64,000 nt of DNA from assembly GCA_009746045.1 (NCBI GenBank), contig RPFO01000788.1:1-64000 (forward strand), read 5' to 3'. The position numbers and the translations under genes are program-made. This stretch comes from Mesostigma viride (Eukaryota; Streptophyta; Mesostigmatophyceae; Mesostigmatales; Mesostigmataceae). The notes under the pieces were generated by a model, which was not told the origin of the DNA, did no database searches, and worked only from the letters and a program-made list of their open reading frames with translations. Each line of letters opens with the position of its first letter. Position 1 is the stretch's first letter. This document shows positions 23,770 to 59,167 of the stretch, piece by piece.

Positions 23770-23822
23770 GCTGGCACTATAATGCTGGCAAAAAAAAAAA
23801 GTGTAGGTAGGGTATAAGTATC
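23770..23822 (+). promoter_or_regulatory. Conserved promoter cassette, copy 2
   Basis: GCTGGCACTATAATGCTGGCA, an A-run, GTGTAGGTAG and GGTATAAGTATC precede the ATG at 23823. The spacing matches copy 1, with a TATA-like GTATAAG just upstream of the start. Confidence 0.6.
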
Positions 23823-24424: not shown

Positions 24425-24431
24425 CCCGTTG

Positions 24432-24566: not shown

Positions 24567-24597
24567 GTAATTATCCATCGCAGTATTATCCATCACC

Positions 24598-25075: not shown

Positions 25076-25100
25076 CGCCGAGGGGCGGGAGCAGCGGGAG

Positions 25101-25665
25101 AGCTTGGATGTTCTTCTCCCCCCCGTTTTTGAGAAGCCTATCCACGATCTCGCTCGAAACGGGATTCTCACCCCCCGCCAGTTTTTTTGGCAAGGAGAAG
25201 CCTATCCAACAACATTGCTCGATAATGCCCGGAGAGGGCGTCTTAAATTTGTTCGATGGTCGAGCAGGGTTTAAGAGGAGGGGAATTTGGATAGTCTTCT
25301 TTTGGTAGTCTTCTTTTTGGAGAGAAAAAAAAAGTATTTTATGGCGTAAGGAATTTTTTTGGGGGGGGTATAGGCTATAGGGTATAGGCCTGGGGGGAAT
25401 AATAGTTGCGGCCGGGCCCGAAAAAGAAGCCTATCCAAGAGAAGCCTATCCACGAACATTGCCCGAGAACTGCGGGAGAGGGCGTCTTAAATTTACTCAA
25501 CCCCTCACCAGGGGTTGTCAGGGGTCGAGTTTGGATAGTCTTCTCTTTTTTTTCCTGGTGACGGATGGATGGGCCGGGGTTGGCAGGGGTTGTATTGGAT
25601 AGGCTTCTCTTTTTTGGGTCGGAGAAGGCTATCCAAGGCGGGGCCGTGTTGAGAGCCCCCGAAAA
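25101..25665 (+). repeat. AGAAG-CTATCC repeat block (left arm)
   Basis: The block alternates GAGAAGCCTATCCA and its inverse TTGGATAGNCTTCTC at about 25133, 25195, 25280, 25428, 25441, 25530, 25594 and 25623, separated by 20-120 bp. Neighbouring inverse pairs can form hairpins, for example TTGGATAGGCTTCTC with GAGAAGGCTATCCAA at 25594-25638. The phrase GGCGTCTTAAATTT recurs as well. The block is mirrored at 26950-27515 and repeated, diverged, at 29495-30062. I see no coding sequence in it. Confidence 0.75.
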
Positions 25666-25669
25666 AAAA

Positions 25670-25822
25670 ATGTCCGCAGTGGTTAATGGATGCGGCCGCC
25701 ACCCCCCCGTGGGCCGGCCTGCAGTGGTGGACGCCCCCGCCAAGTGGGTGATGCGCGACGGGAAGATCGTGCTTGCCACCCCGGTCGATGTGCCCGCTGA
25801 CGTGAGCAAAGACGAGCGATGA
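25670..25822 (+). CDS. Possible 50-residue protein (left arm)
   Basis: The ATG follows an A-run. The product begins MSAVVNGCGRHPP and ends VPADVSKDER. The mirror copy has one C fewer in the CCCCCCC tract at about 25701, which shifts it. Weak candidate. Confidence 0.3.
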   Translation: MSAVVNGCGRHPPVGRPAVVDAPAKWVMRDGKIVLATPVDVPADVSKDER

Positions 25823-26792
25823 CGTCAGCAAGTATACAGCACACCTACGTCCCGGCACACCCCGCCCCGGGTTTGTGGAGGGGTGGCGCTGCGTGCCCCC
25901 GAACAGTGGTGGTGACAGATGCCAGCAAAGATACCGTAAGATTCCAAACGACATCCCGCGCGCTCCGCGCCGCCGATGATGGTGACAGGGCAGCGAAGAG
26001 GCATGCAGCGTGCCACGTGTCCGATTTCTATTGGCTAAATGCAAAAAAGCCCCCATCACACACCGATTCGGGTGGTGACAGGGGCCAGTGGGTGACAGAC
26101 GCCAGCATAAGTGTCAATCTTTGAAAAATGATCACGCGCCGAGCGGTGGTTACCAGGGGAGGTGTCAGAGTTTGGCAGCATAAGGGCAAAAAAAATATCT
26201 AAAGTGACAGTATATAAGTACCTTCCAACAGGAAGAGCCCGGACTTTGACACCGGGTGTCAAAGTTTGACAGGGACCCCCTGGCTCCTCCCCGCCCGGAT
26301 TCAGTGGCCACTGAATCCGGGCGGGGAGGAGCCAGGGGGTCCCTGTCAAACTTTGACACCCGGTGTCAAAGTCCGGGCTCTTCCTGTTGGAAGGTACTTA
26401 TATACTGTCACTTTAGATATTTTTTTTGCCCTTATGCTGCCAAACTCTGACACCTCCCCTGGTAACCACCGCTCGGCGCGTGATCATTTTTCAAAGATTG
26501 ACACTTATGCTGGCGTCTGTCACCCACTGGCCCCTGTCACCACCCGAATCGGTGTGTGATGGGGGCTTTTTTGCATTTAGCCAATAGAAATCGGACACGT
26601 GGCACGCTGCATGCCTCTTCGCTGCCCTGTCACCATCATCGGCGGCGCGGAGCGCGCGGGATGTCGTTTGGAATCTTACGGTATCTTTGCTGGCATCTGT
26701 CACCACCACTGTTCGGGGGCACGCAGCGCCACCCCTCCACAAACCCGGGGCGGGGTGTGCCGGGACGTAGGTGTGCTGTATACTTGCTGACG
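25823..26792. other. Palindrome core: candidate terminus or origin
   Basis: There is no convincing gene here. Each half has repeated TGACAG(A/C)GCCAGCA-type words, a 10-bp inverted repeat CTTTGACACC-G-GGTGTCAAAG (26244-26264 and its mirror), and a TATATAAG box (26211-26218, mirrored at 26397-26404) facing the axis. The central ~34 bp (CGGATTCAGTGG / CCACTGAATCCG and flanks) would form the hairpin tip. These fit a replication or telomere-resolution region, by inference. Confidence 0.45.
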
Positions 26793-26949
26793 TCATCGCT
26801 CGTCTTTGCTCACGTCAGCGGGCACATCGACCGGGGTGGCAAGCACGATCTTCCCGTCGCGCATCACCCACTTGGCGGGGGCGTCCACCACTGCAGGCCG
26901 GCCCACGGGGGGTGGCGGCCGCATCCATTAACCACTGCGGACATTTTTT

Positions 26950-27515
26950 TTTCGGGGGCTCTCAACACGGCCCCGCCTTGGATAGCCTTCTCCGACCCAA
27001 AAAAGAGAAGCCTATCCAATACAACCCCTGCCAACCCCGGCCCATCCATCCGTCACCAGGAAAAAAAAGAGAAGACTATCCAAACTCGACCCCTGACAAC
27101 CCCTGGTGAGGGGTTGAGTAAATTTAAGACGCCCTCTCCCGCAGTTCTCGGGCAATGTTCGTGGATAGGCTTCTCTTGGATAGGCTTCTTTTTCGGGCCC
27201 GGCCGCAACTATTATTCCCCCCAGGCCTATACCCTATAGCCTATACCCCCCCCCAAAAAAATTCCTTACGCCATAAAATACTTTTTTTTTCTCTCCAAAA
27301 AGAAGACTACCAAAAGAAGACTATCCAAATTCCCCTCCTCTTAAACCCTGCTCGACCATCGAACAAATTTAAGACGCCCTCTCCGGGCATTATCGAGCAA
27401 TGTTGTTGGATAGGCTTCTCCTTGCCAAAAAAACTGGCGGGGGGTGAGAATCCCGTTTCGAGCGAGATCGTGGATAGGCTTCTCAAAAACGGGGGGGAGA
27501 AGAACATCCAAGCTC
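26950..27515 (-). repeat. AGAAG-CTATCC repeat block (right arm mirror)
   Basis: Reverse-complement copy of 25101-25665 with few changes. It carries the same alternating motifs. Confidence 0.75.
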
Positions 27516-27539
27516 TCCCGCTGCTCCCGCCCCTCGGCG

Positions 27540-28018
27540 CTACTTGCACTTGGCGAACCCCCAGCTGAAGAACTTCTTGGCCTTGCACCGCGCGCTCTTC
27601 TTGTCCTTGAACGCCTGCATCAGCGCACCGCCCGGGGTGTGCCCCACCACGGCCTTGGTGATCTTGGCGCCCGCCTTGCTGACCTTGTCGGCCGCCTTGT
27701 TGGGAATCATGCCGAACCCGCTCATGAGGCCGCCCAACATGGACACGGGGTTCACGCTGTCCACGATCATCGCCTGCACGTTGGTGACCATTCCGGGTAT
27801 CGCGTCCTTGAAGCGCACGCGCTCGGCCTTCTCCTCAGGCGCGCGGGGGTCTACCGTGTTCGCGGGGGCCGCGGCCGTGCTGTCCGGCTCCGGGTTGGGG
27901 GTGGCCTCGTACGCCACGGCGGCTGCACCGGGGTCCGAGGGGGGGTAGCGGGTTCGGGCATGTTACGCATCATGAAGATCACAAACAGCAGGATGATCAC
28001 GAGCAATAGCATGAACAT
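27540..28018 (-). CDS. Signal-anchored small protein, frameshifted (right arm)
   Basis: Mirror of 24598-25075. The anchor MFMLLLVIILLFVIF and the downstream frame are separated by the same C7 tract (one base short). The downstream frame is open for 125 codons here because this copy keeps the base missing near 24780. This is therefore the better-preserved copy. Confidence 0.5.
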
Positions 28019-28049
28019 GGTGATGGATAATACTGCGATGGATAATTAC

Positions 28050-28184
28050 TCAGCCCACTGTCGGCCCGCTGCTTGGAGTGGGGAGCCTCTTTACGGCCGC
28101 CACGGCCGGGGTGAAGTCAAGCGTGACGGGGCGACGCCACATCTTGACCAGGAAATACACGAAGAACGCGAGGGTCACGGCCAT
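28050..28184 (-). CDS. 44-residue membrane protein (right arm)
   Basis: Mirror of 24432-24566 with the same translation. The sequence just upstream differs by a small deletion. Confidence 0.5.
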   Translation of the reverse strand: MAVTLAFFVYFLVKMWRRPVTLDFTPAVAAVKRLPTPSSGPTVG

Positions 28185-28415
28185 CAACATCAGTCTGAAC
28201 ACATCTCGTAGGCCCTACAAACCCGTCTCCCTTTACCCCGTACGTCACCAGAAACCGGAGTGGGGCCCCCAGCGGGGACTGCACGATGTACTTGAGTGCC
28301 CGAAGCACCGGGCCGGGAGGAGGTGGCGGGGGCGGGGGGTGTAGTACGTGCCGTCCGCCTTCATTTTTCGGCGCGGTACGTGCGTGGACTCGGGTGGGGA
28401 CGTGCCCTCTTCCAT
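28117..28415 (-). CDS. Proline-tract protein with extended C-terminus (right arm)
   Basis: Mirror of 24197-24424, but with GGG instead of GGGG the frame continues to a C-terminus overlapping the 44-residue gene. The left copy's short ending or this one is the result of a one-base indel. Confidence 0.4.
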
Positions 28416-28789
28416 CGTCTATATCTATTGCAAGGGACAAAATTGCAAGGGTCACGGGCCCTAGCGCTTCCCCCCCGGCGCCTCTTGGTCCGCCGTACAC
28501 GTCGTTGCGCGCGGTGTTGTTGCTGCTCGTGCACCACCCGCCGTGCGGCCTGGTCCGCCGCTTCCTGGGCTCTTGCCCAGGCCATGGCCTGGTCCCCGAG
28601 CACGGCGATAACGGCGTACCGCAGGTCTCTTGGCCGTTCAATGCCACCATATTGCAAATTCCTGCGCATGGCTTCGAGTCTACGCTCGTACGGGTCGCGG
28701 TAGTAAGGTGGCGCGTTGACCGCCCGGCGGTACGCAAGATAGCTGCCAGGCCGGTCGACACCCGATTCGAACCTTCGTTGTACTGGCAT
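28361..28789 (-). CDS. Small basic protein, paralog 2 (right arm)
   Basis: Mirror of 23823-24251, with an identical translation and the same upstream cassette (GTATAAGTATC before ATG). Confidence 0.65.
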   Translation of the reverse strand: MPVQRRFESGVDRPGSYLAYRRAVNAPPYYRDPYERRLEAMRRNLQYGGIERPRDLRYAVIAVLGDQAMAWARAQEAADQAARRVVHEQQQHRAQRRVRRTKRRRGGSARARDPCNFVPCNRYRRWKRARPHPSPRTYRAEK

Positions 28790-28868
28790 GATACTTATAC
28801 CCTACCTACACTTTTTTTTTTTGCCAGCATTATAGTGCCAGCTTTACAAGGGGTCGGGTCGGGCCGGG

Positions 28869-29177
28869 CTAGCGGGCCCTAGCGCTTCCCCCCCGGCGCC
28901 TCTTGGTCCGCCGTACACGTCGTCGCGTGCGGTGTTGTTGCTGCTCGTGCACCTCCACCACCCACTGCAGCTGGCCGGCCGCTGCTTGGGCTATGGCCTG
29001 GGCCTGGGCCTGGGCGGCCATTTCGGCCTCGATTGCTCTTTGCCGTTCAACGACGCGCATATTCCTGCGCATGGCTTCAAGCCGGAGCTCGTACAGGTTG
29101 CGGTTGAATTGGTTGATCACGCCTAGATGATGACGGCCAGGCGGGTCGCCAGCCGGGAACATTCGTTTTACTGGCAT
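28869..29177 (-). CDS. Small basic helical protein, paralog 1 (right arm)
   Basis: Mirror of 23435-23743, identical translation, preceded by the same cassette. It is the outermost gene of the right arm. Confidence 0.65.
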   Translation of the reverse strand: MPVKRMFPAGDPPGRHHLGVINQFNRNLYELRLEAMRRNMRVVERQRAIEAEMAAQAQAQAIAQAAAGQLQWVVEVHEQQQHRTRRRVRRTKRRRGGSARAR

Positions 29178-29494
29178 GATACCTATATCACACCTACACT
29201 TTTTTCTGCTAGTGTGCCAGCATTAGAGTGCCAGCTGTCATACTTTGAAAAGCGGGCTGACAGAGGGCCGACAGGGGGTCGGGTCGGCCCGGGCTAGTCT
29301 AAGTGCGAACCACGCCTTTCAGGCGGTCGCGGCACCTCCACAACCCTTGCTAGGCTTCGCGAGGGCTACCCCTCGTTCGTGCGCGTGCTTTGAGCGTCGT
29401 TAGCGTCGTTCGTGGCGGGACGCGGCAGGCGTGGCAGGACGTGGCAGGACGTGTCGGGTCGTGTCAGGTCGTGGCAGGTCGGGTGTCGGCAGAG

Positions 29495-31401: not shown

Positions 31402-32310
31402 TCATCTGACTCGACAGTGTCGCACGCATCGGCGCCTCCTGCCCGTCACCGGGTTCGTGCACCACCTGCGACCCCTGGCGTTCCAGACGTTGCAATGCCG
31501 GCGGTGGACGCAGTGCTGGTTGGTGCACCCGTGGCCCGTGCACGCCCTCGTGATCCTGTCCGGGGTGGAGGCCATATCCACGGCGGTCCCGTCACGGTCA
31601 TCCTCCACCTCCATGCCGAGCGTCTTGTAGTAGTTCACGAGCCTCTCATTGGCTTGGAGTTGACCGGTCTTCCTCAACAGATATTCCTCCATTTTGTCAG
31701 CGTTCTTTAGGTTTTCGAATACCTCTGCCATGTCACTTGCTGTCTGCGGGTACTTTTCGAGGAGCGCCCAAGCCTCATTTAATTTATCGTCACGACTACC
31801 CTTAGGGTCGGATGGTACAAACATAGGCTTTCTCCCCCCCACATGTCCTTGCGCGGATAGAAATACCCTACCGTGTACTGGGTCGTCCAGCAAATGCCTA
31901 TTCGCGTCGACGCCTCTCCAAAACAAATCTTTGCCTATGCCTTTCATCGCTTCCTTCTCCCCCAAGAGAGCGTGATCTGATGCCTTGTTGCTTGGGGCAG
32001 TGTTAACATTAAACCAAGCGTAATACAACCCATCGCCTTTTTTAGTTTTATTTGACACTAGCAAGGATGCCAAATCACTGGCCTCTCTTCGGAGAGCCGT
32101 CATCGGATAGCCATCGGGATAATTTACCACCACGTCCCTCGTTTTACTAGTACTATGAGGTTTGTAGGTAAAATCGAGTGGATAGCTTTGACCGTCCAGC
32201 ACTATGTTCCGCCCGGTGCTCTTGTGTTCTTCTGGGCGTCGCTTACTGACATGTTTGCCCCTCATCCCGTGCCCGTTTTTGTGACCGATCGATTTCCTCA
32301 CGCACCCCAT
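31402..32310 (-). CDS. Paralog A of a Cys-rich-tail viral protein
   Basis: The protein has 302 residues starting MGCVRKS. The body shares many blocks with the next gene (IVLDG-x2-YPLDFTY, RDVVVNYP, GLYYA-x-F-x-VNTA, FWRGVDAN, HGRV-x-LSA, YYKTLGMEVEDDRDGT). The C-terminus is a Cys/His array (CTGHGCTNQHCVHRRHC...C) that could bind zinc, ending in an Arg-rich stretch. No known family recognised. It converges on the nuclease gene. Confidence 0.7.
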   Translation of the reverse strand: MGCVRKSIGHKNGHGMRGKHVSKRRPEEHKSTGRNIVLDGQSYPLDFTYKPHSTSKTRDVVVNYPDGYPMTALRREASDLASLLVSNKTKKGDGLYYAWFNVNTAPSNKASDHALLGEKEAMKGIGKDLFWRGVDANRHLLDDPVHGRVFLSAQGHVGGRKPMFVPSDPKGSRDDKLNEAWALLEKYPQTASDMAEVFENLKNADKMEEYLLRKTGQLQANERLVNYYKTLGMEVEDDRDGTAVDMASTPDRITRACTGHGCTNQHCVHRRHCNVWNARGRRWCTNPVTGRRRRCVRHCRVR

Positions 32311-32357
32311 AATACTATAGCGCGTAAAAAAAAAACACGTCGAATATCCCCCTATTG

Positions 32358-33272
32358 TCATTTACGGACGCGAGCCTTACACTGCTGTGTCGAGTGCCGT
32401 GCGCATCGGCGTCTCCTGCCCGTCACCGGGTTTGTGCACCACCTGCGGCCCCTGGCGTTCCAGACGTTGCAATGCCGGCGGTGGACGCAGTGCTGGTTGG
32501 TGCACCCGTGGCCCGTGCACGCCCTCATGATCCTGTCCGGGGTGGAGGCCATATTGACCCAGGTCCCATCACGGTCATCCTCAACCTCCATGCCGAGCGT
32601 CTTGTAGTAGTCCACAAGCTTCATGTTGTTTTGGATTTCGCCGCCCCTCTCCCACATCAAGGTGTAGGGGTCGCTGCCGGGGGGTAATTGTTCCATTTCT
32701 TCCTCCAGCATGCGCGCCGTGGCGGGGTACTTTTCGATGAGACTCCAGGGCTCGTCGTTCGTGGCGTTGTCGGGGTCGGGTGATACGTATTTCGCTTTTC
32801 TCCCCCCCGTGCTCGCGACCGCGGACAGCGACACCCTCCCGTGGATGGGGTCCTCCATGTGTCTCTTGTTGGCGTCGACGCCTCTCCAGAAGATTTCTTT
32901 GCCGAGACCGCTCATCGCGTCCTTTTCTCCCTGGCTCGCGTGATCCGACCTCCAGTTGCTATTGGCCGTGTTCACTTTAAACAGAGCGTAATACAACCCG
33001 TTGTCTTGGTTATTTACCACCAGGGATCCCAGATTGTCGGCGTAATCCCGGAGAGCGGTGTGCGGGTAGTTAACTGGGTAATTGACCACCACGTCCCTTG
33101 AAGGCAAGCCATCGACCACCCGCGGCCTGTACGTAAAATCCAGGGGGTAATTGCGTCCGTCGAGCACTATGGACCGCCCCGTGCCGTGTTTCTCGTGCTC
33201 GTTGTCGGGCCTCCCCCGTTTGGACCGGGTTATGGCCCTCATGTCGTGCCCGACTTTTTTTGCGCGCCCCAT
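32358..33272 (-). CDS. Paralog B of a Cys-rich-tail viral protein
   Basis: A 304-residue tandem paralog of 31402-32310. The C-terminal ~65 residues are almost identical to paralog A even at the DNA level, while the N-terminal 200 residues are only moderately similar, suggesting gene conversion. The start MGRAKKVGHDM aligns with the paralog start. Confidence 0.7.
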   Translation of the reverse strand: MGRAKKVGHDMRAITRSKRGRPDNEHEKHGTGRSIVLDGRNYPLDFTYRPRVVDGLPSRDVVVNYPVNYPHTALRDYADNLGSLVVNNQDNGLYYALFKVNTANSNWRSDHASQGEKDAMSGLGKEIFWRGVDANKRHMEDPIHGRVSLSAVASTGGRKAKYVSPDPDNATNDEPWSLIEKYPATARMLEEEMEQLPPGSDPYTLMWERGGEIQNNMKLVDYYKTLGMEVEDDRDGTWVNMASTPDRIMRACTGHGCTNQHCVHRRHCNVWNARGRRWCTNPVTGRRRRCARHSTQQCKARVRK

Positions 33273-33330: not shown

Positions 33331-36040
33331 ATGTCTACCGCTCTGGACCAGCTCAGCGACGTCCGTTACGCGCGCATGTACTCAACCGCTCTCCTGGGCG
33401 ACCTCGACCCCGCCGCGAGGGTGAAGGACCTCGTCGTCAAGGCGCAGGACAGCATCGTCATCAAGCCCAACAACGGGTACGGCACCAGCGCGACCAACCG
33501 CCTCAAGATCGTGGGATCCACCGCCATAGACGGGGCGCTGTCCGTGGACAACGTTACCATCGACGGCAGCACCGTCAACTCGTCTTCCGGCAGCCTCGTG
33601 CTCTCGTCCAACGCCGGGTCGGTGCGCATGGCCGACGTGGTCGCCTCCGCGGCCTCCCTCTCGCCGGCCTCCGACGTGGACCTGACCCTCTCGGGCGGTG
33701 CCACCAAGTCGGTGTTGGTGGAGGGCGTCAAGTTCACCGACAACGCGGTCACCACCTCCAGCGGCACCCTTGCGATCAGCTCTGCCGGGTCCTCGGCCGC
33801 CGCGCTCCAGCTGGGCGGCGTCACCGTCACCAACGCCTCCGTGTCCTCCTCCACCGCCAACGGGAACCTGACCATGGCCAGCAACGGCACCGGCTCCGTG
33901 CTCCTGGACAACGTGAAGGTGAAGACCTCGGGCATCAGCAACAACGTGGCCAACGCCGACCTGACCCTGTCGTCCAACGGCACCGGGTCGGTGGTGATGG
34001 ACAGCGTGAAGGTGAAGACGGCGGGCATCACCACCAGCAGCGGCACGCTCTCGCTGACCTCCGCGGGGCGGCGGCCAACCGTGTGGACGTGGCCGGCATC
34101 ACGGTGACGAACGCCAGCATCAGTGCCGCGTCGGCGAGCACCGTGACGGTGGCGAAGGACCTGACCCTGACCAGCACCGCGGGCGGCAGCGGCAAGGTGA
34201 CGACCTCGGCGGGCAATCTGGAGCTGACCAGCGCGAGCGGCACGGTGGCCGTCACCGGGGCTTTGACGGGCTCCAGCACGATCACCAGCACCGGCAACAT
34301 GGTGGTGGGAGGGGACCTGAAGGTTGCGGGCGTTATCGACAGCACGAACGCGAGCGGGAACCTGGAGATCATGGACAAGACGATGAAGTTGGGCTACCAG
34401 CCCGGGTCCGCCACGGTCATGGATTTCCAGTTCGCCAACTCGTCGAACGCGATCTCGAACAGCATCGGACTCTCCACGTTCGCCGGCGCGACCGTCGGCG
34501 GGGGGTGTTGAACATCGCCACCACCGCCTACTCGAGGGCGGGATTCTATTACCCGTCGGCGTACACCAACATTCCCTCCAGCGTACTCGCTTGGAGTACC
34601 GATAACATCTCCATTGAATTTCCCATCACCATCACCAGCGCTTTGACATCGGAGGCAGGGGCTATGGCCCAATTTCTGGGCATCGAACTCTACAACGCCG
34701 GAGGACAGCAATCCTTCTACCGGTTCACGGCCAACAACGGCGCGCTGAGGATCGATAGGAGTATCAATGGGACCGATAACAACGTCACATCAGACAATGT
34801 GGGCTTGTTGAATTCCGCCGGTACCTACCTGTTCAGGGTTTCGTTCGCGTGGTCAGGCGGGGTGTGCACCGGCACTTACACGTTCTCCAAGAACGGCGGG
34901 GCCACTATCCCCGTCACGTGGGGTGGAAGTCCGACACAAGTTGCCACGGCTTATATGATGCCGGCGGGCGCGTCGATCGTCAACAGTTCCATCGCGATCG
35001 GAACGTACTTCACCGGCTACAACCAGGCGTGGACGGTCGACTACTTCAAGCTGACCAAGGGTGTGGCCTCGACCAACGCGGCCTCCGAAAACTCCGGCCT
35101 GTTCGTTGACGGCAGCGCCTCCTTCGGCAGCCGCGCCCTCACATGGCACATGGGCGCCGGCGAGACCTCGCAGGACAAGGGCGACTACACCGGCTCGTAC
35201 TGGCACGTGGAGGGCGGCCAGCTGCTGCTCTCTCGCACCATCCTGGCGGCCGACCGCGAGGCGCCCGCCACCAACGTCAATCTTGCCTCCCTGGCCAGCG
35301 GCTCCGACACGCTGCGGTGGGAGTTCTCCTCCTCCAAGGCCAGCACCGTCGGCAGCGCCACCTTCAGCGGCAGCGGCACCGTCGCGGACGGCGTGCTCAA
35401 GGAGTCCGGCTCCCAGTTCGACTCCGTGTCGCCCAACGTCACGGGCACGTTCTCTCTGATCATCAAGGTGCTGCCCCAGTTCGACCTGTCCACGCTGACC
35501 CTCCTGACCGACCTGATCGAGTACGGCTACCTTGCCGTGCAGATCTCGAGCGGCGGCTTCCTGACCTTCTCCGACGGCGTGAACGCGGCCATCGTCATGG
35601 ACACCCCCGTGCACGCCGAGCCGTTCACGCTGTGCATCACCATGAGCGGGTCGCAGGTCAAGTTCTACCTGGACGGCGCCCTGGTGGCTTCCTCGGCCAA
35701 CGGCGCGTTGGGCGCGAACCCGAATCTGGTGCTGTACGGCGGGTACGTCGGTAGCGTGTGGTACGACGACGTGCGCTTCGTGTCCGGCCAGGCGCTCACG
35801 GCGGCCAACACGATGCTGTACGGCTGGCGGGAGATGTACGCGGCCAACCAGACGGTGACGTACGGTTTCCGCATCTCCAACAACGAGGGCCTGCAGCTGG
35901 TGAAGGTGCGCGGGTCGGGCGGCAGCAACGGATGGGTCGGCACCAACCCCGCGCCCAACACGGTGACGTCCGGCAACAGCATGGGCGCCATCGGGGCCGC
36001 CACCGCGTCCGTCATCAGCGAGAGCCAGATGGCGTTTTGA
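33331..36040 (+). CDS. Giant fibre/adhesin-like protein with LamG-like domain (two frameshifts)
   Basis: Three frames join into about 903 residues if one base is restored near 34064-34075 and one in the G6 run at 34500-34505. The N-terminus (LGDLDPAARVKDLVV...DSIVIKPN) matches the intact paralog at 44674-47064. Residues ~60-330 are Ser/Thr/Val/Gly repeats typical of a beta-helix or trimeric fibre. The C-terminal ~500 residues resemble a concanavalin/LamG-like sandwich (FRVSFAWSGGV, QVKFYLDGALV, VWYDDVRF) and end with a conserved GWREMYAANQTVTYGFRI module. Probably a virion surface fibre. The extra ~140 residues around 34520-34900 are absent from the paralog. Confidence 0.7.
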
Positions 36041-44461: not shown

Positions 44462-44535
44462 TGTGCTGGGCGGGTCTCGATCCCGCGACCTTCAACTCAT
44501 AAGGTTGACGCCCTGACCAACTGGGCTACCAGCAC
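44462..44535 (-). tRNA. tRNA-Ile(UAU)
   Basis: A full cloverleaf folds by hand: acceptor GTGCTGG/CCAGCAC with discriminator A, D arm GCCC/GGGC, anticodon stem TCAAC/GTTGA with loop CTTATGA (anticodon TAT), T arm GCGGG/CCCGC with loop ATCGAGA. No intron, and no encoded CCA. It would read AUA codons. It sits alone between two viral genes. Confidence 0.9.
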
Positions 44536-44673: not shown

Positions 44674-47064
44674 CTAGTTGAGCGACTCCGACACCACGTC
44701 CAGCGTGGTCGTGCCGATGGCGCCCATGCTGTTGCTGGAGGTGATCGTGTTCGGGGCCGGCTTCATGAGGGCGCGGCTGTGAGAGCCAGACCCTCGCACC
44801 TTGACGAGCTGCATGCTCTCGTCGCTGCCGATGCGGAATCCGTACGTGACGACCTGATCCGCGGCGTACATCTCCTTCCAACCGTACAGCTGGGTGTTAG
44901 CGGCGGTGATGGCGGCGGCGTTCACGCGGACATCGTCGTACCAGATGGCATACCCGGCCTGGTTCTTGCCCGGTCCCAGGGTCAGCGTGGGGGAGGCGCC
45001 GACGTCCACGGAGGTGGCAATGACGGCGACCGAGGCGCCGTTCAAGTACACCATGGTCGAAGTGCCGTCACGGACCAGAGCCAGCGTGAAGGACTCTGTG
45101 CTCAGAATGCTATAGGTGCTCTCAGCGCTCGCGGTGCCGTCAGACACGGTGACGTGACCGGCGTTGGTGACCGTGACGGTGGTGGTGGCGCCGGCACCCG
45201 CGTACGACAGCAGAACGAGACCGTTGGCGACGGAGCTGGAAAGGTCGGCCTTGGGAGTGATCTTGGTGATGATGCTGAAGGTGCCGGTGGGCATCGACGA
45301 CGCGCACGACCCGCTCTGGCTTCCGGAATCGTTGACCTTCAGCACACCATTGGAGACGGCCGCGCCACCGTTGAGGGTCACTACCTTGGCACCCACCTCG
45401 GACGTGGTGCCGGAGGTGAACTCCCAGCGCGTGTCATCGGCACCGGAAGCGAGGGTCGACAGCAGGACGTTGGTGCCGGGGGCGTACCGGTCGGCCTGGG
45501 CGATGGTGCGGGAGAACAGCAGCTGCCCGCCCTCGAAATGCCAGTACGAACCGGTGTTGTCGCCCTTGTCCTGGGATGCCTCGCCCGCACCCATGTGCCA
45601 GGTCATGGCACGGGAGCCGTAGCTCGCGTTGCCGGCCATGAAGACACCGCCGGCGTCGGACTTGGTGTTGTCGGTGGCCCCGTTTCCGAGTGTCAGGGTC
45701 TTGTCCTCAATGCGGAGGTTGGTCTCGGTGGTGGTGACGCTGTTGAGTGGGCCATCTACCTGCAGCTCGCCGGTGATCTTGATGATGCCGGACGTGGAGG
45801 TCAGCTGCAGGTCGCCGGCCGAGGTGGTGATCTTGCCACTGCCACCGGCGGTGGAGGTGAGCACGAGGTCCTTCTTGAGGTCGACGGAGACGGCGGCGTC
45901 CAGGGAGATGACATTGTTGGCGGTGGAGAGGGCGCTGTCGGTGAAGGTGACATCCTCGACGGACACGGTGCCGGCCGCGGACGTGATTGAGAGGCTGTTG
46001 GCGCTGGTGCTGACGGTGTTGTCGGTGACCTTGACGTTCTCGAGGATGACGGACTTGGTGGCGCCGGCCGTGATGGAGATGTCAACATCGGTGGACGGGG
46101 CGAGGGCCGCGTCGGTGAACACGACATCCTCGACCTGCACGGTGCCGGCGGCGGACGCCAGAGTGAGGGCACCGGAAGAGGTGCTGACGGCATTGTCGGC
46201 GACGGTCACGTTCTCGAGGACGACGGAAGAGCCGGTGCCGGCAGTGATAGACAGGTCACCACTGGCGACGGTCAGGGCCGCGTCAGTGAACACGACATCC
46301 TCGACCTGCACGGTGCCAGCGGCGGACGTGAGGGAGAGACCATTGGCGGACGTGCTGACGGTGTTGTCAGTGACGGTCACGTTCTCGAGGACCACGGAGG
46401 AGGTGGCACCGGCGGTGATCGAGATGTTGGCATCCGAGGAGGCGGTGAGGGCGGAGTCGGTGAAGATGACGTTCTCCACCTGCACGGTGCCGGCGGCGGA
46501 CGCCAGCGTAAGGGCGCCGGCGGAGGTGTCGACCGCTCCATCAGTGAACGTGACGTTCTCGACCTGCACAGTCCCCGACTGGGCGGCGAGGGTGAGGGTG
46601 CCGGACGACGTGCTGACGGCGTTGTCGGTGACGGTGACGCCCTCCACGACGACGGAGGAGGTGGCACCCGCGGAGAGCACGAAGGTTGGTGTTGCTTGCG
46701 GCGCCATCTGGTTGTTGGTGAACACCACATCCTCGACGCGCACGCTCTGGGCCGCGGCGAGGGACAGCACGTTGTTGGCGGTGGAGATGTCGCTTCCGTC
46801 AATCTGCACTGCCTCAATCTGGGCTGCCCCGGAGAAGTCCAGCGCGCCGACCGTCAGGGTCCCGGAGATGTTGGTGTTGCCGAGGACGGTGACGAGCTTG
46901 GAGACACTGGATCCCTGTCCGGCATTGGGCTTGATGACGATCTTGTCCTGCGCCTGGATGGTGAGGTCCTTGACACTCGCGCCGGTCGCGGTGTCTCCCA
47001 GGATCTCGTTCGCGAGCACACGGCGCAACTTCGAGGCTCCGAGGTTTTCGCAGAGGGTGGCCAT
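44674..47064 (-). CDS. Giant fibre/adhesin-like protein, intact paralog
   Basis: A 796-residue protein. Residues ~75-410 consist of 35-40-residue repeats built on SVVLENVTVTDN-x-VSTSSG-x-LTL and AGTVQVEDVVFTD, typical of a parallel beta-helix or trimeric fibre. Residues ~460-720 resemble a LamG/concanavalin-like domain (FTLALVRDGTSTMVYLNG, YAIWYDDVRV). The final ~60 residues repeat the GWKEMYAADQVVTYGFRI module of the paralog at 33331-36040. The conserved N-terminus (VKDLTIQAQDKIVIKPN) is probably the capsid-attachment part. Likely a virion surface fibre that contacts the host. Confidence 0.78.
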   Translation of the reverse strand: MATLCENLGASKLRRVLANEILGDTATGASVKDLTIQAQDKIVIKPNAGQGSSVSKLVTVLGNTNISGTLTVGALDFSGAAQIEAVQIDGSDISTANNVLSLAAAQSVRVEDVVFTNNQMAPQATPTFVLSAGATSSVVVEGVTVTDNAVSTSSGTLTLAAQSGTVQVENVTFTDGAVDTSAGALTLASAAGTVQVENVIFTDSALTASSDANISITAGATSSVVLENVTVTDNTVSTSANGLSLTSAAGTVQVEDVVFTDAALTVASGDLSITAGTGSSVVLENVTVADNAVSTSSGALTLASAAGTVQVEDVVFTDAALAPSTDVDISITAGATKSVILENVKVTDNTVSTSANSLSITSAAGTVSVEDVTFTDSALSTANNVISLDAAVSVDLKKDLVLTSTAGGSGKITTSAGDLQLTSTSGIIKITGELQVDGPLNSVTTTETNLRIEDKTLTLGNGATDNTKSDAGGVFMAGNASYGSRAMTWHMGAGEASQDKGDNTGSYWHFEGGQLLFSRTIAQADRYAPGTNVLLSTLASGADDTRWEFTSGTTSEVGAKVVTLNGGAAVSNGVLKVNDSGSQSGSCASSMPTGTFSIITKITPKADLSSSVANGLVLLSYAGAGATTTVTVTNAGHVTVSDGTASAESTYSILSTESFTLALVRDGTSTMVYLNGASVAVIATSVDVGASPTLTLGPGKNQAGYAIWYDDVRVNAAAITAANTQLYGWKEMYAADQVVTYGFRIGSDESMQLVKVRGSGSHSRALMKPAPNTITSSNSMGAIGTTTLDVVSESLN

Positions 47065-51858: not shown

Positions 51859-54800
51859 TCAGCGCACGGGGCAGGCGCCGCTGAGACAGTCGGCGTCAAG
51901 GTTGTCCGTCTCCGCGTGGACGATGCCGACGTAGTCGACGGGGAGAATGCGCGAGGTGTACTTTTTGAAATCGGACTCGGACACCACTTCCTGGGGCAGG
52001 TAGCTGTATCCCAGGTCCGCCGCGTTCTTGGTGGGGTCCACTCGCAGCAGGAAGGAGACGCCCACGTAGGAGTCCCAATTGTTCTCCAGCCAGTGCAGGA
52101 TCGAGGGGTCTCTGTGGGGTCGTAGGACACGGTGCAGGACACGTTCTGTTCGCAGTAGTTCTCCATGAGGTTCTTGTACCTCTCCAGCTGTTCGATGGCC
52201 GTCTCGGTGTTGACTTCCACCTCCTCCGTCGAGCCGTCCTTGCGAGTGACCGTCATCTTGGTGAAGGGCACCGTGCAGAACTCGACGGGGAACGTGACGA
52301 GCACCGAGTCGGACTCAAACGGTTTGTCGACGACCTTGTAGTTGGCCTTCTTGAACCGCTCGACCAGCGGGTCGTGCTTGGAGTAGGTGATGTTGTTGAA
52401 GATGTACCTCCCGAGGGGCTTGTGGACGCCCTCGGGCACCTCCCCCCACTGCCTGGTGCTCATGATCTTGGACAGGGTGCCGCTGGGCTTGATGCACGTG
52501 ACGTTCTTTGGCAGGGGCTTTCCGAGCTCCCTGGCCATCTGGTAGGCGGAGGACACTGCCACGTTCTTCATTCTGCGGAAGTCGTAGGGGTGCAGGTCGG
52601 GCCTGGCCACGATTCCGGTCAGGCCCACGCCGCACAGGTGTAGGAACTCGTTGTTGAGGTGCCAGGCCTCTTGCAGTATCTCATCCCTCAAGTCCACCAA
52701 CGTCTGGCGATAGTTCATGCGACTGGCCAGGACGAGCGCGCGCTCCAGCCCGGCCTTGTTGCCCTCCTGGAACGCGGTGAGGTTGACTTCGGTGAGGTTG
52801 CAGAAGGACTTGTTGCCGAGGAGGATCTCACTGCAGTGCAAGAAATGGGTGCATGGGTGGGGGGCAACGTCGCGCGTGTAAGATTATTCCTGGCGCGATA
52901 TTAAAAAATATACATGTACTAGTACTACTAGGCATCCGATCACACATGAAGTGCAAGGGCGTTACTCTTTCCAACCGCAAGTGTCGGCGCGATGTCAGAC
53001 AGGGACGCAAGTTTTGTTCTTTGCACACGAGCCACGCAACAGGGGCGTATCGCACCCGGTACGTGAGGCGTCACCGCATGCGTTCGGGTGACACCATAGT
53101 AAAGTGGCAACTAGACAGAGCCATCCAAGGGCTTAGCCAAAACGACCAGTCCGCTATCCTTCAGGCGCTGGGGATGAAGGGCCAGGTCCGCAAACGCGAT
53201 ACGATCGACTACAACTTTGACAGGAAGAAACTGGACACGGGGGTGAGGGATTACATGGACACTCGACGCTAGAACAGGACACTGGACTCATATATAGAAA
53301 ACGCGAGGGCGGCGCGTGGCCGTCGGACGGCGCTTTGGCTTCGAGGCGAGACGTCTATAACCAACACGCCTTTGCCTGTGCCTCTGTGCGTGCCCCGTGG
53401 TCGCCGTGACGTACTGCAGCTGCGGGCCCGTCCTATCCATAACCGTAAACCTCGCTCGCGACCCCGGACCGCGTCCTCCGTCGTCATCATCACCGCCCTC
53501 GTCCCCCCCCCTCCGTTGTCTATGTCATCGTCGTCGTCGTATTCGTCCGGGTTCGAGCGGCGACCCTGCGCTTCTTTGGTCTGGCCTTCGCCCTCGCCTT
53601 CCTGCGCTCTTCCTTCGCCTTCCAAACCCGGTCATCTGTGGTGTCGCGACCCGCGTCGTATTCTACTTCCGAATCTTCGCCATCGTTGCTTTCGTTATAG
53701 AAATTGGCGGCCTTCTTAGTAGTGGCCCGCGAAGGTCTGCTAGACTTGTCCAGGGCCGTCCACAATTCTCTCGCCCGGTTATTGAACTCCTTTATCAGAG
53801 CATTGGTAAGCGCCGTCCTCCCAACCCCGACCGACTTGAGGACGGAGTACAGGAAGCGCATCACCCGGAAGACGAGTACGCCACCGTCCCCCCCCCCCTA
53901 TGTTCACCCCAACCGCTTGCACCCCAGGCTTCCTCACAACAACTTCACCACGCGTCGTCAAAAAGACGGAAGCGAGAGAGCCGTCCGCGTGTAATGCGAT
54001 GTCGATCCCTCGGAAGGGGAACAGAGGGGATCCGCTATTTCCGAACCCGCCCGGGTTGGGTGTCGGGTGCAAGGCGAAGAGGAGGAACTTTAACGATTCG
54101 AATAGCGATATGAGCTCGCGACCGCGCTTCTTTTTTGTCACTGTCGCGGGCGCGGGCCTTTTTGCGTGCGGTCTCTTTGCAGTCACTTTTTGACTCTTAC
54201 CGGGAGGCATAAGACGAGTATACCTAAGCGCGCACATAAAATTATAGGAGTACGTGCACAGGTAAGATGCAGAGTGGGCGTACCAACAGGGATTAACTCC
54301 TTTGCACCATGGCGCGCGCTTGATGGCGACTCCCAGGTTGAAGAGGCCCGGCTCGGATCCGCCGGAGTCGAGCATGATGGCGAAGATCTCCTCCAGCTGT
54401 TTCTTCGAAGGCCGCTTGCGGAAGATGAGGCTGTTGTTGGACTGCTGGCGGTGTGCGTGCGACACCCACCACTCCTTCTTGGCGGCTGCGAACTCCTTCC
54501 ACTCGGGGTCGCCGTAGTCCATGAGCGCGATCTCGGCGGACCGGCGACTGCTCAACATCGTGCCCAGGTGGTTCACGATGTCTAAGATGTCCATCTTGGT
54601 GAGCAGCTGGTCGGCGCGCATGGACAGGATCTTGGCGATGGCCAGGAACGCCCTGGAGATGTTCTCGTCACCCGAGCTCTGTGTGGTGATAAATGACAGA
54701 CGGGGCATGTGGAATGGACGTGCATGCGGCACCACTCCTGTCAGGCAAACAGTGTTGTTTAGACGTTGGTACAGTCTTCCCGCGTGTCCGGTGGTGCGTC

Positions 54801-57396
54801 ACACCACAGCTGAAATTGTCCGTCAAAAGGTAAGGATGTCCGCGCTCGTCCACTACCTGACGCCCGCGGACGGGGCGAAGGAGGACGCCAGGTTTGCAGG
54901 CAAGATCAGGGTGACGGACGATGGCAGAATTTCTGTGTATGATGCAATGGCAGCTATCGGGATTTCACCACCCAAGGTTTACTGGTCGCGTATTGGGAAG
55001 GACCACCCCGAAGTGGTAACTGGTTGTTACCACTTCCGATTCCCGGCCAGGGCCAGCGAGACACCCCTGTCACTGACCGCCAAGGGATGACCAAGATCAT
55101 AATGCTGCTACCCGGCAAGATTGCGGCCAAGTTCAGGGACCAGGTGTCGGTCCTCCTCGAGCGCTACCTTAATGCTGACCGCTCTTTGGCTGAGGACATT
55201 CTGAAGAGGGCGGATGCCAATGACGGCACCATCACCAACCTGGATGAGCACCCTCGCATACAGAGCTCCTGGGCGGCCAAGGAGCTCGGCGCGTCCATCA
55301 AAGGGTACACGGACGCGCACAAGGGCACCGGAAACATATACCCGATCGTCCACAACACTAACAACCTGGCGGTGACGGGGAAGACGGCGGGCGAGCTAAG
55401 GGCGCGATTCGGTGCCAAGGGGTCCTCTCGCGATCTCCACACCAGGCTTCAGAGTGCGGCCATGAGCTACATCCAGATGGCGGAGGCTGACAAGATAAAC
55501 AGGACCGGCGAGCACCCGGTCATCGTGGCCAAGAGGAGCAGGGAGTTTTACGAGCCCGTATTCAAGGCCGACGGGTTGCACGACGTGTTCGCAGACAGCG
55601 AGTGCGTGAGGGATAACGCGAAGGTCATGAGACTGAATCAGAGCGCTAACAAGGCGGTTTCCGCCACAACGCGCCCAAAATGGTCACTTTCGAGTGCGTA
55701 GTTCAGTGGCTTTAAGCCCCCGTGCCCGTTTGCAGCCCGCTTTGCGCATCTTTTTATCCCTCGCCCTGTACTTGAGAAGGAGGTCCCTCGGGAGCAGATA
55801 GAGCCCGTACTGCCGCACTTGGCCGAACCGCACGCAGGTCCGAGCGTTCCCCCACTGCTTCCCTGAGGGGCGCCTGCCTATCCCGCAGTAGTTCCTGGCC
55901 CGCACAATCTCTTCGTCCTTCGATAGTTTCAACGGCATGTGATTATTCTTACCCATTGCAGATAAAGTTTATGAGGGAATGGACCAGTCACTTACTACCC
56001 AGCCGTATCCTCGCAGACGCTCCCCGGGGGTCTTATTTCGGCGAAGTCGAGGACGAGGTGGTCGGCCGGGTACTTGCCGGCGAGCAGTTTGCCCGCCGCC
56101 TTGGCCCACGCGACCGCCGAATCGCCCACGCTGATTCGCCAGGTCTTGGACATCGGCTCCCATGTCTCCTGGTTGGACTCCCTCCCCCCACTCGCGACCC
56201 TCGTAGACCGGATGACGGAGATGTCAGGGATGGCCTGCGCGAACCCGTTCAGAGTGCCGGTCACTGGCACGAACCCGACCCTGCAGCAGACGCGTGATGT
56301 GCGTTCGATCGGGTGTTTTTGTGTGCCGTTAGTAACGAGGATGGACGCACCGAAAGAGGATTGGAGGGCGAGTATGGACGCGAGACATAAGAATGAAGTC
56401 ATGTCAGCTGACGAGCTCGCCGACGAGTGTCTAATAAAGGTGTATTTCGCAAACAAGATTCGCCAAGCTCGCTTCAAAAACCTGGAGGTCGATCAGGACT
56501 TATTGGAATACGCGATCCGCACCAAGTCTGTACTGGGACGAGCCTACCGCCGCCGTTCAGACTTCATTCGTATGGGTCCGGTCGTCGTCGGATGCGATCA
56601 CGGATGCTTTCATGGCGACAACTCTCACGGTCAAGGGGCCAATACGTGTGGCGCCAATTGTACCGATGATGCATACACCGGCAAAGACAGAAACAAGGAT
56701 ATCCTGATGACGTGCAAGCGGCAGATAGATAACAGCGATGTCGTGATCGCGACCATCAACAAGGAGGCGGACTGTCACGGAACCTTGATGGAGATCGGGT
56801 ATGCTCACGGACGCGGCATCCCCGTGCTGGTCATGTTCGATCCAGAAATGAGCGAGGAGGCGAGACGAGAATTTTGGTTTGCGGCTCAAATGTCACAGTC
56901 TCGGCCTCTCCCGTACCACCACCGGTACATTTTTCGTCACGTGAAAGAGCTGTCGCCGTTCTTGGATTACAAGCAATACCGGAATTACATCAAATCCCTC
57001 CTCAAATATAGATGTGACTCACCCGCACCCCTGGAGTAGAAGCCACAGGACGTCCACCACGTCGTAGACGGTCTCCACCTCGGTGAAGCTGCAGTTGAAC
57101 ATGCACGACTCCCTCCGCCGGCTCAGCTCGGTCCCCCCCAGGAACAGCGTGCGGCCGGCGGGGGCGATCCTCCTGTTGAGGATGTGGTGGTGCAGCTCGG
57201 AGAGCTCGTCCATCTCGATGGAGTTCAGAGGCTGCCCTTTCGCCCTGACCCACAGCCACTTTTGGTGGCCCACGACCCTGTCGACCACGTTTTCCCACGT
57301 CTCGAGCCGTCCGCTGCCGTCGATGGGGCGATGGTACGTCCTCAGTTCGATCGCCATGGCCCTGTCGGTGGGCGTGGTGACGGCGGAGTCCGTCAT
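51859..57396 (-). CDS. Class II (B12-dependent) ribonucleotide reductase, four exons and three introns
   Basis: Exons: 57396-57023, 56280-55996, 54678-54284 and 52830-51859. They encode the successive blocks of a monomeric adenosylcobalamin-type reductase, which makes deoxynucleotides for DNA synthesis: GTELSRRRESCMFNC (redox Cys), GCGVGF and VIRSTR, VGDSAVAWAKAAGKLLAG, RRSAEIAL, the NPCCEILL thiyl-radical loop created across intron 3, SFCNLTE, CIKPSGT, LLRVDPTKNAADLGY and the C-terminal CLSGACPVR redox pair. Single-base gaps at 56022-56025 and 52105-52108 break the frame. With both filled, the exons total 2028 nt (675 residues), near the usual ~740. Splice sites are GTGAGT, GTAAGT and GTACGC at 5' and CAG at 3'. 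The frames agree across all three junctions. Confidence 0.85.
52946..53272 (+). CDS. Cys/His-motif protein (family member 7), nested in RNR intron 3
   Basis: 108 residues. MKCKGVTLSNRKC...KFCSLHTSH followed by YVRRHRMRSGD, the same two-part module as the 36-38-kb genes, then a short helical tail. It lies antisense within the intron. Function unknown. Confidence 0.65.
   Translation: MKCKGVTLSNRKCRRDVRQGRKFCSLHTSHATGAYRTRYVRRHRMRSGDTIVKWQLDRAIQGLSQNDQSAILQALGMKGQVRKRDTIDYNFDRKKLDTGVRDYMDTRR
53520..54210 (-). CDS. Hypothetical basic protein nested in RNR intron 3, frameshifted
   Basis: It starts MPPGKSQKVTAKRPHAKR, then a region with SLFESLKFLLFALHPTP and IALHADGSLASVFLTTRGEV. After a G11 run (53888-53898, where an indel must lie) it continues MRFLYSVLKSVGVGRTALTNALIKEF and a Lys/Arg-rich tail. 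Same strand as RNR. Not recognised. The C-terminal end is uncertain. Confidence 0.45.
54836..55701 (+). CDS. KilA/Bro-like viral protein nested in RNR intron 2, one frameshift
   Basis: MSALVHYLTP..., then ISVYDAMAAIG and WSRIGKDHPEVV. After one missing base at 55045-55046 come GQRDTPVTDRQGM, LPGKIAAKFRDQVSVLLERYL and NADRSLAEDI. This arrangement (VYD...HPEV...GQR-x-TPV...LPG-x3-A-x2-FR...RYL) matches proteins related to the KilA-N/Bro families of large DNA viruses and algal genomes as I know them. With one base added it is 288 residues. Probably DNA-binding. Confidence 0.6.
55684..55956 (-). CDS. YCG-motif small viral protein nested in RNR intron 2
   Basis: 90 residues. ARNYCGIGRRPSGKQWGNA followed by CVRFGQVRQYGLY resembles the short NYCG...P-x-G...G-x2-x-EC-x-R-x-G motif proteins common in large algal viruses. 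Basic C-terminus. It overlaps the end of the convergent KilA-like gene by 18 bp. Function unknown. Confidence 0.55.
   Translation of the reverse strand: MGKNNHMPLKLSKDEEIVRARNYCGIGRRPSGKQWGNARTCVRFGQVRQYGLYLLPRDLLLKYRARDKKMRKAGCKRARGLKATELRTRK
56281..57022 (-). other. RNR intron 1 (742 nt), with nested gene and UACUAAC branch site
   Basis: It starts GTGAGT and ends CTGCTGCAG. Removal joins GCG to VGF in frame. TACTAAC (minus strand, 56328-56334), 47-53 nt before the 3' end, is a canonical branch-point sequence. Confidence 0.85.
56341..57039 (+). CDS. Nucleoside 2-deoxyribosyltransferase-like protein, antisense in RNR intron 1
   Basis: From ATG 56341, 232 residues. An N-terminal helical segment of ~75 residues precedes VVVGCDHGCFHGDNSHG, NKDILMTCKRQIDNSDVVIATI and HGTLMEIGYAHGRGIPVLVMF. 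The last two match the (D)-G-(T)-x2-E-(I/L)-G-(Y/F)-A signature of the nucleoside deoxyribosyltransferase fold, which exchanges bases on deoxynucleosides. A purine-salvage role next to RNR is attractive but inferred. The gene fills the intron and runs 17 bp into exon 1 on the opposite strand. Confidence 0.65.
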   Translation: MDAPKEDWRASMDARHKNEVMSADELADECLIKVYFANKIRQARFKNLEVDQDLLEYAIRTKSVLGRAYRRRSDFIRMGPVVVGCDHGCFHGDNSHGQGANTCGANCTDDAYTGKDRNKDILMTCKRQIDNSDVVIATINKEADCHGTLMEIGYAHGRGIPVLVMFDPEMSEEARREFWFAAQMSQSRPLPYHHRYIFRHVKELSPFLDYKQYRNYIKSLLKYRCDSPAPLE

Positions 57397-58504: not shown

Positions 58505-59167
58505 TCACTCGAACTTCACAACGAACCGCTGTCGGACCTGCTTCACTTGCGGCCTCACGATGACCGCGAGGTCCGAGGCCTTGCACCGGTTGCGGCACTT
58601 CACTATCTTCCCGGCTCGGATGCGGACGTTTAGGACCTTGTCTTTGCACTTGGGCAGGTCGGACCTGATCAGCTCGTGGTGGCGCCTGGCGTATTCGATG
58701 ACGCCGTTCAGGATTGCCCACCGAAAGAAGTTCATTTGGCCGGGGGTGGTGGTGATCTCCCTCTCCCCCTCGGCGAGCTTGGTCTTCCTCCTCCTGGCGA
58801 AGGGGTCGAACATGCGCTTGGAGTAGAAGTCCAGCTGCTCGCGGTAGGACATGTACAGGTTGAACGGGATGGAGCTGCCCTGGACGCAGTACTCGACCCT
58901 GTGCGTCTTCGCGTAGTTGGTGACCAGCCACTCGATCACGCGGAGGGACAGGCCGGACGACTTCTTCTTCCCTTCTGGGTTGGCGAACTCGTACAGCGTC
59001 TCGAAGTTGTCCTTGCTTCCGTAGAAACGCTGCAGAGATCGCTCCAGAAGGTCCATAGCGTCCGATGCGTGCCCAGTCTCGCTATATACGAGAGATAAAT
59101 ATTTGGCGAGCGTCCACCTCGTCCCGGTGTCCTGGCGCAGGACGCGGTCATGCGGGATGCGCGCCAA
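58505..59167 (-). CDS. A494R-like conserved giant-virus protein
   Basis: 220 residues. The core NLYMSYREQLDFYSKRMFDPFARR, followed by ITTTPGQMNFFRWAILNGVI, is characteristic of a family conserved in many nucleocytoplasmic large DNA viruses (the group containing chlorovirus A494R, as I recall it). Its role is not established; a late-gene or transcription role has been suggested for related proteins. The frame is intact. This is the best lineage marker in the window. Confidence 0.7.
   Translation of the reverse strand: MARIPHDRVLRQDTGTRWTLAKYLSLVYSETGHASDAMDLLERSLQRFYGSKDNFETLYEFANPEGKKKSSGLSLRVIEWLVTNYAKTHRVEYCVQGSSIPFNLYMSYREQLDFYSKRMFDPFARRRKTKLAEGEREITTTPGQMNFFRWAILNGVIEYARRHHELIRSDLPKCKDKVLNVRIRAGKIVKCRNRCKASDLAVIVRPQVKQVRQRFVVKFE

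Follow-up and report, generated by a model that had tools for sequence, protein, structure and literature searches.

A class II ribonucleotide reductase gene split by three putative spliceosomal introns that carry other genes, in a Mesostigma viride assembly

A ribonucleotide reductase gene in four blocks

The window analysed here, a 64,000-nucleotide (nt) stretch of the Mesostigma viride genome assembly, contains on its minus strand a gene for ribonucleotide reductase (RNR) that is divided into four coding blocks by three intervening segments, and these segments house five further genes. An initial annotation, drawn from the letters of the window, had described the gene as viral and its breaks as spliceosomal-type introns. 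In the direction of the gene, the blocks and putative introns are arranged as follows.

57023..57396, minus strand: RNR coding block 1 (374 nt; positions 2-127 of the TIGR02505 model)
56281..57022, minus strand: intron 1 (742 nt, GTGAGT..CTGCAG, phase 2; TACTAAC ~49 nt before the 3' end)
55996..56280, minus strand: RNR coding block 2 (285 nt; model 128-222; one frame change near its end)
54679..55995, minus strand: intron 2 (1317 nt, GTAAGT..ACACAG, phase 0)
54284..54678, minus strand: RNR coding block 3 (395 nt; model 231-377)
52831..54283, minus strand: intron 3 (1453 nt, GTACGC..CTGCAG, phase 2; inside the NPCCEI loop)
51859..52830, minus strand: RNR coding block 4 (972 nt; model 381-724, as 381-637 and 642-724; one frame change)

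The four blocks sum to 2026 nt. Searched as five coding pieces, each alone, they match TIGR02505 (RTPR) collinearly and without overlap over model positions 2-724. The pieces were scored separately, and each lies below the whole-protein cut-off of 340 bits; the small model gaps between them are piece ends trimmed at split codons or frame changes. These matches predict a class II RNR of the RTPR type, dependent on adenosylcobalamin, over the length of the model. The piecewise matches confirm the initial annotation's four class II blocks in correct order on the minus strand, and its intron lengths and donor and acceptor boundaries were found as claimed, as were the TACTAAC branch site in intron 1 and two frame interruptions, near the end of block 2 and in block 4. 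Its proposal that joining the blocks restores the NPCCEI loop also held, the loop being reconstituted across the intron 3 break. We take this loop to be catalytic.

GT..AG boundaries, as in U2-type introns, were found in all three window introns and in 11/11 introns at the second site (site 2) in RNR copies of a sister virus, described below. Introns 1 and 2 of the window have full GTRAGT donors. Computed from the window's GT and AG frequencies of 0.060 and 0.056, the probability that all three insertions would show GT..AG ends by luck is P ~2e-7, with the GTRAGT donors uncounted. The boundaries can slide to 3, 1 and 2 equivalent positions for introns 1, 2 and 3, respectively. Branch-like candidates are a CTGAC that lies 63 nt before intron 2 ends and, in intron 3, just a TTAAT.

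The insertion sites fall in conserved parts of the protein. RTPR alignment positions at least as conserved as sites 1, 2 and 3 make up 16.5%, 11.4% and 16.7% of the alignment, and three random sites would be so conserved with P 0.014 (78 loci with all four pieces, 5 partial loci being left out). Such site conservation would be compatible with targeted or selected insertion, though the effect is modest. Introns 1-3 show no similarity to one another or to the rest of the window, and neither a target-site duplication nor a terminal inverted repeat could be made out convincingly at them. We rejected inteins, as the intervening segments contain in-frame stops, and think introners unlikely, given that no repeats are present among the three introns.

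Genes nested in the putative introns

The five nested genes occupy about 92%, 85% and 70% of introns 1, 2 and 3, respectively.

56341..57039, plus strand: nucleoside 2-deoxyribosyltransferase-like gene, intron 1 (PF05014, 1.3e-8; antisense to RNR; ~92% of the intron)
55684..55956, minus strand: 'YCG' gene, intron 2 (90 amino acids (aa), sense strand; no family match)
54836..55701, plus strand: DdrC/KilA-like gene, intron 2 (antisense, in two overlapping frames; NCBIfam DdrC, 1e-4)
53520..54210, minus strand: gene of no recognised family, intron 3 (sense strand; no relatives; GTATA/TATAC element)
52946..53272, plus strand: Cys/His-motif gene, intron 3 (antisense; start motif in six other window open reading frames (ORFs); GTATA/TATAC element)

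These genes are as the initial annotation described them, with the added detail that its KilA/Bro-like gene is two-framed and that the product matches PDB DdrC chains (E 0.006-0.023). The deoxyribosyltransferase ORF ends 17 nt within RNR exon 1, on the opposite strand. The sense gene of intron 3 has an apparent frame change near a G-run, and it has an 11-mer in common with one other gene in the window, that at 42253. By codon scores, the nested frame was the best of six in 6/7 pieces, and the seventh was scored in the wrong frame.

A promoter-like GTATA/TATAC element precedes the RNR gene and both genes nested in intron 3. It stands before 9/17 free-standing genes of the window, against 3.8% of 896 ATGs; the 17 starts were picked after viewing from 21, and one of the four dropped has the element, which gives 10/21.

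The start motif of the Cys/His gene (C-x3-T..C..C..H-type) was read by eye in seven ORFs, at 30140, 36823, 38005, 38987, 44398, 48540 and 52952, an eighth row (6936, a stop-filled frame) having been set aside. Three of the seven match each other by BLAST, and one scanned member has a Pfam match, to DUF5763, just under the cut-off. The seven are possibly an expanded viral gene family.

No match to the HNH, GIY-YIG, VSR or PD-(D/E)XK nuclease families was obtained with any nested ORF scanned. Scans of IMG/VR with DdrC_C and YCG returned no relative, and a scan with the deoxyribosyltransferase returned one locus. A relative of the intron 1 gene, at L081:4560-5558, combines a weak HNH-like N-terminus (E 0.76) with a GCDHGCFH-type deoxyribosyltransferase domain. 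Outside the RNR gene, an HNH-nuclease-like motif was seen by eye at 49252 on the minus strand, in a frame with no family match.

Uninterrupted relatives and sister copies

With the introns excised, the RNR pieces are spaced exactly as in uninterrupted relatives at two junctions, 1 and 3; junction 2 agrees as well, save for the frame change inside block 2. Intron-free RNR homologues, which the initial annotation had named as a check, were found: the pieces are contiguous in 78/78 viral-contig loci and in 28/29 bacterial or archaeal loci, counting loci in which all four pieces occur (incomplete sets, at 5 viral and 3 genome loci, stand outside these counts), and the sister copies have no introns 1 and 3.

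The single exception, L118, is on a contig of a Desulfuromonadaceae-binned metagenome-assembled genome and has an 815-nt insert in the same RNR loop (L118:2180-3000), on the upstream side of the intron 3 site of the window and ~4 nt from it as read by eye; the loop has thus been invaded independently. The insert carries a LAGLIDADG_2 endonuclease ORF (PF03161, 3.5e-25) and is likely a diverged self-splicing intron.

Mobile self-splicing introns are common in RNR genes, phage cases included, and introns of group I or II whose RNA has diverged could in principle explain the window insertions as well. The L118 insert, so close to the intron 3 site, and the placement of the insertion sites in conserved motifs both speak for this. 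An Rfam search of the window introns gave zero intron-family match at E<=5; the same search also missed the L118 insert, so that the miss is weak evidence against self-splicing. Against self-splicing stand the GT..AG ends of all three introns and the full donors of two. Group I introns require an exon-final U before the intron and group II introns an AY end; by these general rules the window introns qualify as neither, having no exon-final U before them and no AY end. Moreover, the RNA of intron 1, the one intron that was folded, folds no better than shuffled sequence (z 0.17), and the cargo has no homing nuclease domain match. We consider self-splicing very unlikely.

The history of the gene was examined with a tree of block 4 (60 rows, including 28 viral loci, every third one being taken, and 31/32 genome loci; eukaryotes were left out). 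The window RNR groups with Chlamydiota with support of 100/100; it sits close to the base, and its branch is long (0.45). Chlamydiota RTPR genes (L088-L114 and L116) are the closest non-viral relatives found, at 70-75% on block 4, pointing to a transfer between chlamydiae and this virus lineage, in either direction. A phage origin of the RNR was rejected, since on block 4 the best phage-like contigs reach 64% (among the best 80 loci) and named phages 62%. No GT-AG intron was seen at these sites in any bacterial or viral-contig relative that was compared, and the introns are therefore probably viral-side gains.

At least 12 further RNR copies, belonging to a sister virus, are present in the same assembly (contigs C137, C295, C314, C628, C667, C887, C2092, C2180, C115, C1610, C2240 and C1932). 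Their protein identity to the five window pieces is typically 74, 66, 71, 82 and 60%. Two of the copies are in large contigs (6.0 and 5.3 Mb), the others in contigs of 26-95 kb; the number of copies, 11 with near-identical introns at site 2 and two in Mb-scale contigs, makes a recent endogenous-virus amplification likely. Endogenous giant viruses in Acanthamoeba are the subject of PMC12210455, as far as the available part of that paper goes.

Intron 1 is absent from the sister virus, blocks 1 and 2 being contiguous in 10/10 copies that show both ends, and so is intron 3, with blocks 3 and 4 contiguous in 12/12. Introns 1 and 3 are thus confined to the window lineage and are probably recent gains. 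Site 2, by contrast, is occupied in 11/11 testable copies by a segment of 630-646 nt (GTGGGT..TTTGCAG, phase 0) at the same codon boundary. A few indels aside, these sister introns are 99-100% identical to one another. In blastn comparison with window intron 2, they gave chance-level matches only (best E 0.12). An antisense ORF of 200 aa is present in 8/11 and is shorter in 3; in L128 it fills 603 of 632 nt, ~95% of the intron. It has no Pfam match and no tblastn match in the window or in L140. As judged from sequence comparison, intron site 2 is common to both lineages and its cargo is different. Site 2 was probably gained before the lineages split, or independently twice, and sites 1 and 3 were probably gained in the window lineage, or lost by the sister.

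This distribution bears on the possibility that the introns came from a host nuclear RNR captured by the virus, viral genes having entered them later. A further RNR-like gene that matches in pieces is present on C1846 of the same assembly, which would fit such a capture. The sister copies, however, hold an intron at site 2 only, so that a captured gene common to both lineages would not have contained introns 1 and 3, barring their loss in the sister. We regard capture as extremely improbable.

The cargo itself has a relative elsewhere. A DdrC homologue of the sister virus occupies a single open frame at L147:5157-6092 on the 6-Mb contig C667 (63% over 188 aa) and lies outside the RNR gene, ~18 kb from it; the two are assumed to belong to one provirus, and the position of DdrC is given relative to RNR only. 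The other nested genes had no tblastn match at E<=0.01 in the own-genome stretches compared, a small part of the assembly. The initial annotation had left a choice between whole viral genes living inside introns and genes that entered as intron-like insertions. Its inference is supported in part, in that in-frame GT-AG segments interrupt an otherwise complete RNR, and the DdrC homologue outside the sister RNR favours the second route.

A related possibility is that these are spliceosomal homing introns like the 'shintrons' described for mirusviruses in the available part of PMC12768974, in which an encoded nuclease would cut conserved sites and the cargo would hitch-hike or consist of diverged nucleases. 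The location of the sites among the 11-17% most conserved positions, the filling of site 2 in two lineages with unlike cargo, and the weak HNH-like stretch of the L081 deoxyribosyltransferase relative are in keeping with such homing. Against it, no nuclease-family match was found in the scanned nested ORFs or in the sister intron ORF (the latter searched against Pfam only), and a relative of the DdrC cargo resides outside RNR. Homing of this kind is, in our judgement, quite unlikely.

Viral setting, proposed mechanism and known systems

Contig C1816 (71,882 bp), to which the window belongs, comes from a genome of 440 Mb in 2,243 contigs, which indicates that the assembly is eukaryotic. The gene that the initial annotation called viral is thus not simply that of a free virus. 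The virus was placed with the help of a neighbour of RNR.

58505..59056, minus strand: DUF7197 gene

Its closest tie to a named eukaryote is an identity of 77% with the EukProt entry Mesvir1, a label that we read as Mesostigma viride; in the assembly sequence compared, the window's own copy is the best match to that protein. Its predicted structure (predicted local distance difference test score of 80) has 14 matches in BFVD at E<=0.001; 11 bear an organism name, and all 11 come from nucleocytoviruses of algae or amoebae or from giant-virus metagenomes. Mirusvirus proteins may be scarce in BFVD, and the matches are thus compatible with Mirusviricota. An IMG/VR scan with the single DUF7197 sequence returned no relative. 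The RPB1 neighbourhood of L082, read by eye, is a further basis for the nucleocytovirus placement. Among 30 window ORFs scanned there was no Pfam match to the capsid, packaging ATPase or DNA polymerase hallmarks, so the placement rests on one gene, DUF7197, and its relatives. On this basis the resident virus appears to be nucleocytovirus-like.

Other features were noted in the window. A Ty3/gypsy-type retrotransposon at 4310-10254 encodes gag with a zinc knuckle and pol with reverse transcriptase, RNase H, integrase and chromodomain; relatives of it flank the sister RNR region on C667 on both sides (L144, L145 and L148). An ORF at 13610-15928, on the retroelement side of a palindrome described below, weakly matches phage integrases (tyrosine recombinases), at E 0.0025, which falls short of the Pfam cut-off. 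The viral part includes a tRNA-Ile gene (anticodon TAT) at 44462-44535. Paralogue families at 31402-33272, 33331-36040 and 44674-47064 comprise a 61% tandem pair and repeat-rich proteins with a common C-terminal part, and have weaker matches in sister virus stretches. A homologue search with a 779-aa ORF gave no match.

The palindrome, at 23315-29297, is a near-perfect 3-kb one without spacer; it is an artefact of fold-back in the assembly or else a viral hairpin or concatemer junction. Over ~2,990 nt, 7 differences separate the arms; five are one-base indels, four of these in homopolymers. If the arms copy one DNA, this rate can explain two frame changes in 2,026 nt. The RNR frame changes would thus fit the indel pattern of the assembly, with decay as the alternative. 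The sister copies L128, L132 and L133 have open frames over the same regions, indicating that intact-frame RNR copies exist.

Decay would mean that the window holds a dead provirus, in which insertions of viral genes broke the RNR after endogenisation and nothing is spliced. Consistent with this are the two frame changes in the window RNR, the splitting of block 4 into two or more matches in 5/12 sister copies, the shortened intron ORF in 3/11, the occurrence of the sister DUF7197 copy on C667 likewise in two frames, and the location of the window in a eukaryotic assembly with retroelements. Three insertions that all have GT..AG ends would nevertheless be improbable in a dead gene (P ~2e-7, as above). 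In addition, 11 sister copies retain a GT-AG segment at site 2, block 4 is a single match in 7/12, the NPCCE loop is preserved across the break, and the frame changes can be errors, given the indels between the palindrome arms (4 of 7 differences being one-base and in homopolymers). We therefore think decay unlikely.

We consider it probable that a nucleocytovirus-like resident virus has an RNR gene whose nuclear transcript would be spliced by the host at three GT-AG introns, and that these introns act as gene cassettes whose cargo turns over. The virus would be resident in, or assembled with, a eukaryotic genome, its RNR would be transcribed in the nucleus, and the host major spliceosome would remove the introns from the transcript. 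The introns would double as cassettes for antisense or separately promoted genes, which would themselves be expressed. The different cargo at shared site 2, together with introns 1 and 3 found only in the window lineage, suggests that genes move into, or become, RNR introns, by a route that we infer. More tentatively, and with somewhat less expectation of being right than wrong, we propose that the introns are exchangeable gene slots, in which viral genes inserted at conserved codons, carrying or borrowing splice sites, and were later swapped or moved out; such a cassette system would depend on the host spliceosome, with no encoded nuclease involved.

Several observations weigh against splicing of gene cassettes by the host. 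The intron 3 donor, GTACGC, is weak, the TACTAAC branch site is confined to intron 1 among the window introns, and a search of the final 120 nt of the sister intron gave no YTRAY-type branch site. The ends of the sister intron slide by a few bases (GCAG on both sides), so that its boundary is fixed by the GT..AG criterion, and window intron 2 and the sister intron could have been gained separately at the same position instead of being a single intron whose cargo was swapped. The frame changes in the window RNR and the divided block 4 of sister copies, which are perhaps decaying, count here as well. As to the cargo, only DdrC_C is clearly coding (0.015 of the wrong-frame null), the other five lying at 0.08-0.13; the deoxyribosyltransferase, DdrC and YCG genes have no GTATA/TATAC element; and the nested Cys/His gene has no BLAST match to the window ORFs that have its motif, the link being the motif alone.

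The locus bears on the old question of how spliceosomal introns are gained and on their capacity to carry genes. Three states can be compared, namely an intronless gene of chlamydial type, one gene-filled intron and three, the latter two in one assembly. If the placement holds, gene-bearing spliceosomal introns would not be confined to mirusviruses, two sister viruses would provide an example of unlike cargo at one fixed intron site, and the viral RNR would by implication be transcribed in the nucleus.

The initial annotation had called nested genes in viral introns very unusual. They are not unique, as >2,000 genes are reported inside spliceosomal introns of mirusviruses in the available part of PMC12768974. 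The literature searched, which covered few subscription papers, contained no nucleocytovirus RNR with gene-bearing spliceosomal introns. The accessible text of PMC12768974 also describes an apparent lack of equivalents of the mirusvirus homing introns in eukaryotes and other viruses. As described there, those introns ('shintrons', MING-1) resemble the window introns in being GT-AG, in carrying whole genes and in belonging to a large eukaryotic DNA virus; the same portion of the paper reports WCTAAC-type branch sites in one order of mirusviruses and a gene-bearing intron whose site is the same in different orders. Unlike mirusviruses, the window virus is placed with nucleocytoviruses through its DUF7197 neighbour, and most shintrons lie in virion genes, so far as that portion states (PMC12768974), as opposed to a nucleotide-metabolism gene in the window. 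The window cargo also has no detected homing nuclease, differs between the sisters and includes a gene that is outside RNR in the sister. Because no homing nuclease was found, we do not class the window introns as shintrons.

The introners defined in the available text of PMC12768974 are similar in their recent gain at new sites; the three window introns, unlike introners, have no sequence in common. Mobile RNR introns with homing endonucleases, such as the likely one of L118, likewise insert in the NPCCE loop at conserved codons, whereas the window has GT-AG ends, no endonuclease and a site ~4 nt away. As in the window, the capsid gene of Faustovirus E12 is a nucleocytovirus gene split by long introns, two of which contain ORFs (PMC6247863, in the part available). 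In contrast to the window introns, which are all GT-AG with cargo that is not nuclease-like, five Faustovirus introns are given in that part as group I, with non-canonical splice sites and ORFs encoding GIY-YIG endonucleases. The same part of PMC6247863 mentions spliceosome-type introns in chlorovirus genes. The window RNR thus resembles chloroviruses in having introns of the host-spliceosome type in a nucleocytovirus gene. To our knowledge, chlorovirus introns are short and gene-free.

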